IMG/VR virus record: IMGVR_UViG_3300029319_000460
Coordinates: 1-25,304 of that record
DNA length: 25,304 nt
DNA from: a virus
Direction: 5' to 3' (one strand)
The notes under the pieces were generated by a model. It had not been told where the DNA came from. It worked only from the letters and a program-made list of their open reading frames with translations, and ran no database searches. This document shows positions 156-25,076 of the stretch, one piece after another. Each line of letters begins with the position of its first letter. The stretch's first letter is position 1. Made by a program: the position numbers and the translations under genes.

Positions 156-2528
156 ATGAATCTGCAACAGTTTGTAAAGATGTTACCAAAACATCTTGTT
201 TACGCTCCGATATATCGCAAAGGGGTTGAGATAAAATCTAAAGAAGGAAAGATTTTAGAGGCAACAGGAAAGAATCCTTATGGAGAATCCTATGAAAGAA
301 ATTTCTCTCCAGATGATGTTACTTATGTATTAGAAAAGTATCCTGATCGTTTTGGTGCTATTGGTTTATTTACAGGCTTAAAAGGTAAAGGTTTAGTTAT
401 TCTTGACGTTGACAAAAATTTAGCTATCCATAAAAAGAAATGGGGAGACACTTTAGATGGTGCTCCCTGTATTACCAGTACAAAGAAAAATGCTGCTAAA
501 TATATATTTAATGTTCCAGAAGAATTATGGTCTAGCGTTAAAGGTAGATTTCTTTCTGAGCAAACTTCCACTTGTTATGAAATTTTGTGGAATAGACAAG
601 GTGTAATATTTGGTTCTTATCCTGGTTCAGCTACTTCTTCAGAGGGTAATTATGGTTTTAAAGGGGATTTAGATAACATTCCTAATGCTCCAGATTGGTT
701 GATAGCTGAAATGAAGCATTTAAAAGCAAATGAGGAAAAAGCTGGCTTTGTTAAAAATAGAAGTGGTTTAGTTTTATCAGATAGAACTGAAGATGAAAGA
801 GCACAAATAATTCAAGAGTGTTTAAGTGTTATTCCAACTAAAGGTGCTGGTAGTAGAGAGCATTGGTTATACGTTGGTATGTCTATACATTCTGAACTAC
901 CTAATGATGTGGGTTTAGAACTTTGGTCAGTATGGTCTAAAAACGATCCTGACTACATTAACGATTGGGATAAGCATAATCCATGCGAAGCTGTTTGGAA
1001 GTCCTTTAAAGGCTCTGGAAGGGGCATAGGATCACTAATACATGATGCTGATGAAGTCGATCCAAAAAGATTACGTTTTAGTCCTATAAGCAAAGATATT
1101 GTTGATAAGGCTCAAAATGAATTACTGGTAAGAACAAGACGAGTAAAAATGTCTTTCCAGGAAGTCAAGAAAGAATATATGCGTATCTGTGAAGAGGTTG
1201 CTGATCCAGGAGAACAAGATTTTTTGATGCACCAGTTAGCTGTGGATAATGAATTTAAAGATTTAGAAAGACTAGAAAGCTGCTTAATGAGTAGTGAAGC
1301 ATTTGATTTAGGTAGTGAAGAAATGACTGCTTCTGAATTAGATGCTGAAGATTTATCTCGTAGCTATGTAATTCCTGAGATACTTCCTACTCCTGCTGTA
1401 TTCCTACTTTATGGTGCTGGTGGAGATGGTAAATCAATGGCTGCCTGGGCATTAGCTAAACACATATCATTAGGTTTACCTTTTGAAGTGCAAAACAATA
1501 TCGTTCCAATAAAGAAAGGTAAGGTTTTAATTCTTAATGCTGACCAGCCAAAAGTGCAGTTGCGTGAACAGTTAAGGGAACAGGATTACAAAATGGATAA
1601 CAATACTGTTGTTATTAATGGTTTTCAAATTAAGCGTGAATATTACTTTGCTCAACTAATTAAAAAACATAAACCAACATTAGTTGTTATTGATTCACTA
1701 ATTGGTTCTTCTGCTGGTAGAGCGTTTGATGAAAACAAAAGTTCTTTTGCATCTCCTTTGTACAGACTTACCAATAACAATGGTCATAGTTTTCCTGCTA
1801 CAACTATCCTTGTCATTCATCATGCTAATAAACAAGGTGGATTTAGAGGTACAAGTTCTATTAGAGATGCGGTTGATGAAACTTGGAAATTAAGCAAACC
1901 AGATAAAGAGTTAGCTGAACAGTTAGGAACTAATACAAGAATTATTAGAGTTGAAAAGAGTAGATTTAGTCGTATGGGCAGTTGCCTTCTTCTAAAACAA
2001 TTAAGTGATCTTAGCTTTGAGTTAAAAGATTACAAACCAAAGGTAGAAAATTCTTCCCCTGCTTCAATAATTGATCGCATACTTGAAAAACTTAGAACTG
2101 TTTATCCAGAAACTAGATCCAGGATTGATCTTAATGCCGATCCACTAATCGGTGGTAATGTTACTGCTATCAGAAAATCATTAGAAAGGTTAGTTGATAG
2201 AGGATTAATTCAAATTTGGGAGCAAAAACCTTCGGTTAATGGTGGTCGGCCCACTAACTACTACAAAGCTATCCTCGTGCGGGGAGACAAAAAATCTGTC
2301 GCATTGAATGGAAAGCCTAGTGATGACAGTGATTTAGCAATGCGACAGGTAAATAAAAAAGAAAGCTGTCACATTGGTACGGATGAAGCAATGCGACAGG
2401 AAAAAGAAAAAGATAAGTGTCGCATTGATAAACCCTTACCACAACAGGAATCTACTACCAATGCGACAGGTAATTTATATTCCCCCGTGCGAGGAGATGA
2501 AAAAGATGCGTGGAAGGCTTGGAGATGA
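156..2528 (+). CDS. Primase-helicase (AEP-like primase, PriCT-type domain, RecA-fold helicase, C-terminal winged helix)
   Basis: Replication protein of 790 residues, expected to synthesise primers and unwind the phage replication fork. ATG 156 is preferred over TTG 147 because GTAGG lies about 11 bases upstream of it. Visible layout: an N-terminal AEP/prim-pol-like domain with the metal-binding LDVD (D84, D86); a PriCT-like domain around 215-297 (EHWLYVGMSIHS then SVWSKNDP); a RecA/RepA-type ATPase with Walker A GAGGDGKS (420-427), Walker B LVVIDS (509-514) and VIHHANKQGGFRGTSS; and a winged-helix-like segment around 635-705. The usual AEP motif II histidine is not evident (TSTKKNAAKYIF), so primase activity is less certain than ATPase activity. 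Residues 705-777 are a low-complexity polar tail whose DNA contains the symmetric repeat array. The gene opens the replication operon and overlaps the next gene by 4 bases. Confidence 0.88.
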   Translation: MNLQQFVKMLPKHLVYAPIYRKGVEIKSKEGKILEATGKNPYGESYERNFSPDDVTYVLEKYPDRFGAIGLFTGLKGKGLVILDVDKNLAIHKKKWGDTLDGAPCITSTKKNAAKYIFNVPEELWSSVKGRFLSEQTSTCYEILWNRQGVIFGSYPGSATSSEGNYGFKGDLDNIPNAPDWLIAEMKHLKANEEKAGFVKNRSGLVLSDRTEDERAQIIQECLSVIPTKGAGSREHWLYVGMSIHSELPNDVGLELWSVWSKNDPDYINDWDKHNPCEAVWKSFKGSGRGIGSLIHDADEVDPKRLRFSPISKDIVDKAQNELLVRTRRVKMSFQEVKKEYMRICEEVADPGEQDFLMHQLAVDNEFKDLERLESCLMSSEAFDLGSEEMTASELDAEDLSRSYVIPEILPTPAVFLLYGAGGDGKSMAAWALAKHISLGLPFEVQNNIVPIKKGKVLILNADQPKVQLREQLREQDYKMDNNTVVINGFQIKREYYFAQLIKKHKPTLVVIDSLIGSSAGRAFDENKSSFASPLYRLTNNNGHSFPATTILVIHHANKQGGFRGTSSIRDAVDETWKLSKPDKELAEQLGTNTRIIRVEKSRFSRMGSCLLLKQLSDLSFELKDYKPKVENSSPASIIDRILEKLRTVYPETRSRIDLNADPLIGGNVTAIRKSLERLVDRGLIQIWEQKPSVNGGRPTNYYKAILVRGDKKSVALNGKPSDDSDLAMRQVNKKESCHIGTDEAMRQEKEKDKCRIDKPLPQQESTTNATGNLYSPVRGDEKDAWKAWR
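2296..2469. repeat. Mirror-symmetric array of six 11-base elements (candidate origin or operator)
   Basis: Six copies of CAATGCGACAG alternate in strand: minus 2296-2306, plus 2338-2348, minus 2366-2376 (one mismatch), plus 2389-2399, minus 2417-2427 (first base differs), plus 2459-2469. Centre-to-centre spacings are 42, 28, 23, 28 and 42, a mirror image about position 2382.5. Outer boxes CCTCGTGCGGGG (2273-2284) and CCCCGTGCGAGG (2483-2494) extend the symmetry to within one base. The copies fall in different reading frames of the primase-helicase gene (VAL, AMRQ, CHI, AMRQ, CRI, NATG), so the conserved unit is DNA, not protein. Adjacent copies can form three stems with loops of 31, 12 and 31 bases. 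The array suits iterons of an origin within the initiator gene, as in lambda O, or an operator. The function is inferred. Confidence 0.85.
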
Positions 2529-2814: not shown

Positions 2815-4647
2815 ATGACACAACCAAAATATTCCGTATTCTACGGCATCAAGGAATTGCATCGCCTACACGCAGCGTCAAGCCTTGCATTTGATACAGA
2901 AACACTACAGCTTCAGCCAGAAAAAGGCAAGCTGAGATTGATCCAACTCGGTTCTTACACCTTACGAACCATAGTTGTAATTGATTGTTTTGAACTAACA
3001 GAAAATAACTGGAATTACTTACAAAGATTCTTTACTAATGGAGCTAGATTTTGGCTTGCACATAACGCAGTTTTTGATCTTGGCTGGCTCCAAGAACACG
3101 ATATAGATATTCGTGGAAAGGTAAGATGTAGTATGTTAGCAAGTCGTTTACTTACCAATGGCATACCAAAAACTCAGCATGGTTTAGCTCATGTAGCAAA
3201 GAGATATTTAGATATTGATGTATCTAAAGAACAACAAGCATCACATTGGGGTGCTGATGTTTTGAGTCAGGCTCAACTTGAATATGCTGCTAAAGATATA
3301 GAAGTATTGCTTGAGCTAGATCAAATATTAGATCGTAAACTACAGACTGATCAATTAATGGAAGCGTACACATTAGAGTGTCTTGCTTTACCAGCTATGG
3401 CTCAAATGTGGAGAACTGGCCTTCCCTGGAATCGTTCTGCTCTTGAGCAAAGACGTATTGATTATGAAGATGATCTAAAAGAAATGTCTAAGGAGTTTCT
3501 TCGTGAACTTGATAATGCTTTACCAGAAACAGATAAGTTACCACGAGAACGTGATGGATCGTTTAATTTACGGGCGAAAGACGAAGGTTCTATACGATTG
3601 GGTACTAAAAAATATGCTGGATTCAATATTAATAGTCCTAAACAATTACTAGAAAAATTTACTCTAATACTTGGCACTCCACCTGTAGATGCTACTGGTA
3701 AACCCAGTGCTTCAAGACAGACATTAAAATCTTTTGCTGCTGATTCTGAGATTATTCAAACTTATCTAGTTTGGAAAAAGACAGAAAAACGTAGACAGAT
3801 GATTACAAGTATCCTAGAAAAACTAGATGATAAAGGTTATGTTAAAGCCTCTTATATGCAGTTGGGTGCTGATACAGGGAGAATGTCTAGCATCAAACCA
3901 AATAATCAACAGATACCTAGAGATTCTGAGTTTAGACAATGTGTAGAGGCTCCAGAAGGTTGGAAAATAGTTGATGCTGACTTTTCACAGATGGAGTTAC
4001 GTCTTGCTGCTGCTTTAGCTAACGATGAAAATATGATCCAGGCTTTTATTAGAGGAGAAGATTTACATGACTATACTGCTGAACAAATGGGTTGCGATAG
4101 ACAGATAGCTAAATCAGCTAACTTTGGTTTGCTTTACGGAGCAGGAGCAGAAGGCTTGCGTAACTACGCTGGTAGTAGTGGTGTTTTGATGACGCTCGAA
4201 GAAGCAACAAAAGTTCGTGATAACTGGTTGCGTACTTATAAAGGTGTACACGCTTGGCAGAATAAGAATTATCAGATTGCAAAAAACTCTAGTGGTAATG
4301 AATGGGCCGAAACTCGTATTCCTTTATCGAATATGCGTAGGTATCTTAAAGGCGATCTTAACAGAGTAACAGTTAGATGTAATACTCCGATCCAGGGTGC
4401 TGGTGCTGCCATACTAAAGTGTGCATTAGGAAACTTATGGACAGAAGTTAAAGAATGTGGAGAAGATAAAGTAAGGATCGCAGCAGCAGTACATGATGAA
4501 TTAATACTTTTAGTTAAGGAGCAATTTGCTGACGCATGGGCTCATAAACTTAAAGGTATTATGGAAAAAGCAGAATCAAAATGGTTAGGTAGAGTCCCTG
4601 CTGTTGCTGAAGTATCTGTCGGAAATACCTGGGAGGAAACTCATTGA
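2815..4647 (+). CDS. polA: Family A DNA polymerase with 3'-5' exonuclease
   Basis: Replicative DNA polymerase of 610 residues. ATG 2815 is preferred to TTG 2803. The DnaQ-like proofreading domain is complete: D27 and E29 in FDTET, D88 in HNAVFD, and Y157/D161 in YAAKD. The palm and fingers show motif A DADFSQMELR (D389), motif B RQIAKSANFGLLYG (R429, K433, F437) and motif C VHDE (H560-E562). There is no 5' nuclease domain, as is usual for phage Pol I enzymes. The residue equivalent to E. coli Pol I position 762 is Phe (codon 4123-4125). The helix before motif B is shorter than in E. coli. It lies 47 bases after the preceding gene, with a TTGTAGTACACTAAC element in the gap, and its stop overlaps the next start. 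Confidence 0.96.
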   Translation: MTQPKYSVFYGIKELHRLHAASSLAFDTETLQLQPEKGKLRLIQLGSYTLRTIVVIDCFELTENNWNYLQRFFTNGARFWLAHNAVFDLGWLQEHDIDIRGKVRCSMLASRLLTNGIPKTQHGLAHVAKRYLDIDVSKEQQASHWGADVLSQAQLEYAAKDIEVLLELDQILDRKLQTDQLMEAYTLECLALPAMAQMWRTGLPWNRSALEQRRIDYEDDLKEMSKEFLRELDNALPETDKLPRERDGSFNLRAKDEGSIRLGTKKYAGFNINSPKQLLEKFTLILGTPPVDATGKPSASRQTLKSFAADSEIIQTYLVWKKTEKRRQMITSILEKLDDKGYVKASYMQLGADTGRMSSIKPNNQQIPRDSEFRQCVEAPEGWKIVDADFSQMELRLAAALANDENMIQAFIRGEDLHDYTAEQMGCDRQIAKSANFGLLYGAGAEGLRNYAGSSGVLMTLEEATKVRDNWLRTYKGVHAWQNKNYQIAKNSSGNEWAETRIPLSNMRRYLKGDLNRVTVRCNTPIQGAGAAILKCALGNLWTEVKECGEDKVRIAAAVHDELILLVKEQFADAWAHKLKGIMEKAESKWLGRVPAVAEVSVGNTWEETH

Positions 4648-24546: not shown

Positions 24547-25076
24547 TATCCTCTAACCGCCCGTAATTGAAAACTTCCTGCTCCACCTAACATATACGCT
24601 CCAAGATAACTTTGTAACCAAGGGTACACATCTAAAATATTATTTATAGATCCTGTTCCCTGACTTGCAGTATTGTATTTAACTTGAATATCCCCCAGTT
24701 TTACTTCTTCAAAATTTCCATCTTTTCCTGTAGTTCCTGTAATAGCATCAGTATCATTTGCCAATGCCCTGGCTAACTCATATTGTGCATATTTAATTGG
24801 ATTAGGAATTTTAGAACAAGCTAGTTCCACACCATCTACCTGATAATTGTTTCTTGGGAATTTTAATGCCTGTCCATCATCACATCTATCTCCATAAAAA
24901 ACTAAAGTATCAATCCATCTAGCAGCAGATATTAATGATCTTTTCTTTTGATCGTCTGTTTTATTTGTCCAAGTAGAAGAATCTGGAGAGGTATCAAAAT
25001 AATCATTAGCTTCTGTCAATGTGACATAACTATTGGCATTTTCTCCTTTTATTGTTGCGTCTATAGTAGCTGCCAC
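24546..25076 (-). CDS. Head-tail connector, DnaT-like ssDNA-binding family
   Basis: 176 residues. The pattern ANSYVTLTEANDYF near the start, KKRSLISAARWIDT with FYGDRCDDGQALKFPR, and IPNPIKYAQYELA is the typical signature of the phage connector family annotated DnaT-like ssDNA-binding. It probably sits on the portal ring as the first adaptor of the neck. First gene after the terminator at 25114-25143, so it starts a new transcript or lies downstream of partial readthrough. Confidence 0.8.
   Translation of the reverse strand: MAATIDATIKGENANSYVTLTEANDYFDTSPDSSTWTNKTDDQKKRSLISAARWIDTLVFYGDRCDDGQALKFPRNNYQVDGVELACSKIPNPIKYAQYELARALANDTDAITGTTGKDGNFEEVKLGDIQVKYNTASQGTGSINNILDVYPWLQSYLGAYMLGGAGSFQLRAVRG

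Follow-up and report, generated by a model that had tools for sequence, protein, structure and literature searches.

Organization of the initiator locus

The window, by which we mean the whole 25,304-base virus record analysed here, comes from a marine phage and carries a gene whose product unites primase, helicase and predicted DNA-binding domains in a single chain (Table 1). An earlier sequence-only reading of this DNA had described the gene as a primase-helicase, and profile searches bear this out, identifying Prim-Pol, PriCT_2 and AAA_25 domains. The sole PDB relative of the helicase family by profile is RSF1010 RepA (1g8y, E 7e-4). That reading had further put a winged helix near the C-terminus, immediately ahead of the array of repeated elements described below, in agreement with an AlphaFold2 model (built from 44 window and locus sequences), in which the segment just 5' of the array is a winged helix with a pLDDT of 81; the Foldseek matches of the modelled domain are winged helices of the PadR, ArsR-like, TFE and RTP kinds, none of them with E < 0.001.

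Table 1. Positions of the initiator gene, its domains, the array and neighbouring features in the window.
Feature	Position	Strand	Remarks
Initiator gene	156..2528	+	Prim-Pol, PriCT_2, AAA_25 (RSF1010 RepA-type), C-terminal winged helix, array-containing linker, short tip DAWKAWR; profile search
Prim-Pol domain (AEP-type primase)	258..698	+	residues 34-180, E 4.5e-5
PriCT_2 domain	810..1049	+	residues 218-297, E 5e-14
AAA_25 RecA-fold helicase domain	1326..1838	+	residues 390-560, E 4e-18
Winged-helix DNA-binding domain, proposed array binder	2067..2270	+	AlphaFold2 and Foldseek
Recognition helix NVTAIRKSLERLV	2160..2198	+	R and E four residues apart, co-varying with two adjacent word letters
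Left outer inverted arm TCCTCGTGCGGGG	2272..2284	.	matched by 0/200 shuffles; most relatives have comparable arms
Site 1, CAATGCGACAG	2296..2306	-	exact
Left gap, box B position	2319..2337	+	degenerate in the window (AGTGATGACAGTGATTTAG); relatives have AGTGMTGGAACGGGATYT
Site 2, CAATGCGACAG	2338..2348	+	exact
Site 3, CAATGTGACAG	2366..2376	-	one mismatch
Centre box TTGGTACGGA	2374..2383	+	box B-like TGGWRCGG
Site 4, CAATGCGACAG	2389..2399	+	exact
Site 5, CAATGCGACAC	2417..2427	-	one mismatch
Right gap, box B position	2438..2459	+	degenerate in the window
Site 6, CAATGCGACAG	2459..2469	+	exact
Right outer inverted arm CCCCGTGCGAGGA	2483..2495	.	partner of left outer arm
Family A DNA polymerase with 3'-5' exonuclease	2815..4647	+	same replication module; profile search

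The linker that follows the winged helix contains six elements, four exact and two with one mismatch, whose strands strictly alternate and whose centres are spaced 42, 28, 23, 28 and 42 bp apart; all six lie at the positions and in the orientations originally described. A scan of the whole window recovers these six as the only matches at one mismatch or fewer, and the decamer CAATGYGACA has one copy outside the array, at 25017. When six oriented sites are placed at random in the same span, full mirror symmetry arises with P ~0.002. The outer inverted arms share their centre with the array to within 1 bp (2383.5 versus 2382.5), and therefore the whole 224-bp region can be described as one large imperfect palindrome. 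A distinct AT-rich element for unwinding is not evident: the arrays average 51% AT against 52-53% in their flanks, though an 11-bp TAATTTATATT run is present at 2471-2481. Cumulative GC skew had been suggested as a means of locating an origin near 2380, but no turn was found at the array in the window; since the skew mostly follows gene orientation, we regard it as uninformative as an origin marker.

Several features of the gene and its surroundings are worth recording separately. After the linker, the protein ends in a short, tryptophan-rich tip (2502-2525), which takes forms such as DAWKAW, KNDAWTKW and QEAARMWD in the window and its relatives L017, L018, L024, L055 and L057. The tip is kept in most clades with a coding array and is absent where the gene stops early, and it is possibly a partner-binding peptide; in two window-clade relatives, L101 and L103, another, longer C-terminal extension takes its place. 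The small gene at 2525-2767, conserved 3' of the array in several relatives (L207, L017) and carrying a motif like APLASVRYTKYD, has no Pfam or PHROG match. The primase part (258-1049) is weakly related, at 29%, to the CyRepA1 replication protein of a 7.8-kb plasmid of S. elongatus, a resemblance that hints at a cyanobacterial host; a search for an array on this small plasmid found none. One further relative of the phage gene (L166) is located on a contig that binning assigned to an uncultured proteobacterium, which may reflect a prophage or a binning error.

Selection on the array acts at the DNA level

A protein search of IMG/VR yielded 80 related loci; relatives in that database number more than 460, the best 80 of which were retrieved. 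Among the close relatives (81-98% protein identity) that contain the whole array, all six elements and their spacings are kept in every case except L015 and L060, which have 12 extra bases inserted exactly at the centre and so read 42-28-35-28-42. In 16 close-relative genes the mean pairwise difference is 0.052 within the elements and 0.212 in the spacers, and moving the element mask circularly, in 190 different shifts, never gave a value as low as that of the true mask. Among close relatives, elements and spacing are conserved while the spacers diverge, which is what the sequence-only reading had proposed to look for.

The same 16 genes indicate that this conservation is not of the kind expected from a protein. 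Differences at codon positions 1 to 3 are 0.051, 0.062 and 0.045 in the elements, which amounts to no codon-phase signal, as against a normal pattern of 0.077, 0.027 and 0.327 in the part coding for the winged helix. The array also persists as non-coding DNA in several clades at greater distance, where a stop codon ends the gene ahead of it or partway through it. Selection on the array, as judged from these comparisons, acts on DNA rather than on protein, as had been proposed. The supporting observation that identical words are read in different frames holds in part: two codon phases are used, rather than all three, and AMRQ occurs twice in the same phase. That the repeats belong to the protein, or are a recent repeat expansion with no function in DNA, could be entertained given that the window sites lie within coding sequence, but the missing codon-phase conservation, the use of two reading phases, the alternating strands and the persistence of the array where it is non-coding leave this explanation a negligible probability.

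A mirrored template whose word changes as a set

When repeated 8-mers are counted in an unbiased way, an array appears at the same position in nearly all loci that cover the region. Relatives at greater distance (for the most part 46-56% identity) usually repeat the word TGGGACA, with CTGGACA, TAGGACA or GGGGACA in others. Within each divergent array the word is the same or nearly the same throughout, so that it changes as a set, and it is confined mainly to the array (6/6 copies in G007 and 5/6 in G012). Sites are weak or few in three divergent relatives (L057, L062 and L163).

Counting distances between 7-mer starts, these arrays follow the template [- 44 + 13 + 16 -] gap [+ 16 - 13 - 44 +], that is, two mirrored and rigid half-arrays. 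All eight sites fit in 44 loci and seven of eight in 22 more, compared with never more than three of eight in 200 shuffles; many of the fitting loci are near-duplicates, and the better-fitting arrays reduce to 30 distinct ones, that of the window included. The window array spans exactly what the template does with a gap of 19 (165 bp), with two inner sites missing and the two central ones displaced 3 bp outwards. This comparison shows the six-site array to be a reduced version of the eight-site layout.

The central gap falls into clusters at 9, 18-22, 31-32, 43, 52-55, 65 and 76 bp, in steps of ~11 bp or about one helical turn. Spacing of the gap by helical turns is suggestive, a grade we set because the clusters were recognized after the fact: the phasing test, matched by 0 of 5000 trials, used cluster centres picked by eye. 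The array centre itself, GGTACGGATGAA, is non-palindromic and of variable length. We considered a protelomerase-type site and rejected it on these properties, there being no perfect palindrome at the centre.

A second motif, which we term box B, has the core TGGARCG and the fuller form AGTGMTGGAACGGGATYT, and occupies both 44-bp gaps and often the centre too. In the 30 distinct arrays the core, written TGG[AT][AG]CG, has 47 copies on the + strand and 3 on the - strand; the background of the gene would predict fewer than one on the + strand. Box B lies nearly always on the coding strand, also in those clades where the array is non-coding.

Arrays beside other AAA_25 helicase genes

When the TGGGACA-site pattern was searched for in DNA, with no use of gene information, it led to contigs with an array directly 3' of a different AAA_25 helicase gene, the products having Prim-Pol/PriCT_1, PriCT_2 or Toprim_3 at their N-termini. 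At least five copies of one 7-mer are found within 330 bp after the gene at 53 of 56 loci, as opposed to none of 56 control windows taken from within the gene, in a set that comprises two AAA_25 families and comes nearly entirely from one of them. Single members of other AAA_25 families, L308 and L323, have the usual word replaced wholesale, by GGTACCC and GTATACC respectively.

Cultured phages are among the carriers of an array by an AAA_25 gene, each with its own word: Salicola CGphi29 (GGGGACA), Idiomarinaceae 1N2-2 (CGGTACA), Alteromonas PB15 (TGAACCA), Roseobacter CRP-811 (CTACAAA) and Rhizobium 16-3 (CGTGACA). The same holds for a 17-kb Klebsiella circular record (GCCGCAC) and the circular record Caenibius p1 (TGCGGAA), both of which include phage structural and integrase genes and therefore may be excised prophages. 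The arrays beside these other AAA_25 genes are of mixed strand, and the mirrored template was not found in them. An arrangement like that of the window is seen on the Anabaena cylindrica plasmid pANACY.03, where eight copies of TTGGACAA (3917-4136) lie inside an AAA_25 gene, right after the winged helix.

Arrays are not present in all AAA_25 phages, S-CBS4, Pam2 and vB_PstS-pAN having none; these three are among the annotated phages that match the window's own gene, all of them distantly. We also considered sk1, an AAA_25-type phage, as an experimental anchor and set it aside, its annotated putative origin lying around ORF47 rather than beside the helicase, and the helicase having a different architecture. 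The sequence-only reading had called the mirrored layout unusual: the layout is real and conserved, and arrays of the general kind prove to be widespread beside AAA_25 genes.

This distribution bears on whether the array is instead an operator. In that case the initiator's winged helix, or some other regulator of the phage, would bind it to control how the replication genes are transcribed, and the array would take no direct part in starting replication. Many initiators autoregulate, a mixed-orientation array could serve as a multi-site operator, and the array is situated between the initiator gene and the downstream small genes and polymerase gene. It is, however, at the 3' end of a gene and not at a promoter, promoter-like sites nearby are no more frequent than chance, the array recurs by helicase genes from several families, whose neighbours differ, and eight rigidly mirrored sites exceed what an operator usually needs. 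We consider a purely regulatory function unlikely.

A palindromic region might also act by folding, as RNA hairpins in the transcript, as a DNA cruciform or as a single-strand initiation hairpin, like the structures proposed for pRN1 and those of the RSF1010 ssi sites. Predicted folding is far above that of shuffled sequences (z -8.9 for RNA and -8.0 for DNA), and in pRN1 a 100-bp stem-loop that lies downstream of a comparable gene is essential. Strong folding is nevertheless expected of any inverted array, mirror partners among the letters flanking the sites agree no better than other inverted pairs, indicating no excess complementarity outside the words, and where C has become T or G in a site of the window clade, the partner site has no compensating change. 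It is for these three reasons that we rank a structural role low. In addition, the arrays of the same word in another AAA_25 family are largely same-strand and cannot form such stems, and an Rfam search of the array region gave no match. Folding as the function of the region thus appears quite improbable.

The winged helix and the letters of the word

The winged helix probably binds the array. At one position of its recognition helix (AIRK), arginine or lysine is found mostly where the word has G as its first variable base, and H, Q, T or G where this base is T or A. Glutamine four residues further on accompanies G as the second variable base, while the glutamate of the window clade accompanies C or T. 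Residues one helical turn apart that touch neighbouring bases are what is expected of a recognition helix. There are exceptions (L055, L144, L160 and L162), and the columns of highest mutual information include some that merely follow phylogeny, so that shared ancestry explains part of the signal; because of both, we take the match between winged-helix residues and word letters, of the sort a binder would give, as suggestive.

The covariation also weighs on whether the array is a packaging, partition or recombination site of a different protein that happens to lie near the helicase gene. Partition and resolution sites can be inverted arrays, which is in favour of this explanation, but the association with helicase genes is consistent across families and the letters of the word change along with the winged helix of the helicase itself. 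An unrelated DNA site of this type is, in our view, very improbable.

A proposed origin of replication

We consider it likely that the array is an iteron-type origin placed inside the gene of its own initiator, bound by the winged helix and loading two opposed helicases, in line with the opposing replisomes that the sequence-only reading had raised. What the comparisons show is the layout, its conservation as DNA, the joint replacement of the words and the association with AAA_25 helicase genes; binding by the initiator protein, function as an origin and the opposition of two rings are inferences. In such a scheme the winged helix near the C-terminus would bind the words (here TGCGACA, within the frame of CAATGCGACAG), one half-array, of four sites in relatives and three in the window phage, would position one helicase ring, and the mirror half-array would position a second ring facing the opposite way. 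Once loaded, the rings would open the DNA for priming by the Prim-Pol domain and extension by the adjacent family A polymerase, and two forks would move apart. Gap steps of about one helical turn suggest that the two complexes touch or need the same face of the DNA. The single orientation of box B breaks the mirror symmetry and is not accounted for by the two-ring model.

Somewhat short of an even chance, in our judgement, is the wider proposal that these loci represent a distinct class of bidirectional origin. Its members would consist of mirrored half-origins, each for one RepA-type primase-helicase ring, set face to face across whole-turn gaps, with a one-directional box B and a word that co-evolves with the winged helix, and could lie in the coding sequence of the initiator; the related unmirrored arrays would mark the origins of many AAA_25 phages and plasmids. 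If the array is an origin as proposed, those of many uncultured AAA_25 phages could be recognized from sequence by a word array next to the helicase gene, the coupled variants of word and winged helix together with the turn-spaced gaps would form a natural test of back-to-back loading of ring helicases in bacterial viruses, and a protein linker would double as space for a DNA element.

Relationship to known replication systems

Initiator genes with adjacent iterons are already known. We found no published account of arrays beside AAA_25 helicase genes in the open-access literature searched, where the word sequences gave chance matches only.

In the core origins of SV40 and the papillomaviruses, inverted pairs of sites assemble two opposed helicase hexamers. 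The proteins involved are unrelated SF3 helicases and the core is compact, in contrast to the two four-site half-arrays and turn-spaced gap of the phage array. RSF1010 is nearer in its helicase, RepA being the closest solved relative, and primase and helicase of this replicon likewise act at an iteron origin. Its RepA, RepB' and RepC are separate proteins, with RepC binding the iterons, and its origin combines tandem iterons with ssi hairpins; in the window, the primase and DNA-binding domains are instead fused to the helicase.

With lambda the likeness is in position, as the iterons lie inside the coding sequence of the initiator O. The parallel with lambda-type origins drawn in the sequence-only reading stands for this intragenic location and fails in other respects: the initiator of the window includes a helicase domain, and its sites stand in inverted orientation, unlike tandem same-strand iterons. 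Lambda O is not a helicase, and the window initiator is not of the type that recruits host DnaB; ori-lambda has four iterons beside an AT-rich tract (PMC7466680) and lacks mirrored half-arrays.

The origin of pRN1 lies just downstream of ORF904, a gene for a Prim-Pol, helicase and winged-helix protein, and a bidirectional start has been proposed for it (PMC4234260). It thus resembles the window in combining these three domains in one protein and in having its origin by the 3' end of the gene, but the pRN1 helicase belongs to SF3 and its origin is a stem-loop without iterons, as opposed to an AAA_25 helicase and an iteron-type array. A pRN1-like stem-loop origin was considered for the window and is disfavoured, as pairing is not conserved with diverging sequence outside the words.

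In the SaPI and SCCmec elements, the C-terminal domain of the Rep or Cch2 helicase recognizes iterons by its own gene, and two hexamers are thought to be involved (PMC7581432). These elements share with the window a self-contained initiator helicase, a C-terminal DNA-binding domain (with binding in the window predicted from sequence and model) and repeats at or within the 3' end of the gene. They differ in using other helicase families and in having iterons that are downstream and non-coding, compared with the RecA-fold RepA-type helicase and intragenic mirrored array seen here. Descent from a SaPI/P4 replicon was rejected, as it calls for a D5, DUF927 helicase, and that of the window is an AAA_25 RecA-fold protein nearest to RSF1010 RepA. 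Set beside all these systems, the intragenic, mirrored and turn-spaced form, with a fused RepA-type initiator and words that change as a set, appears to be new.
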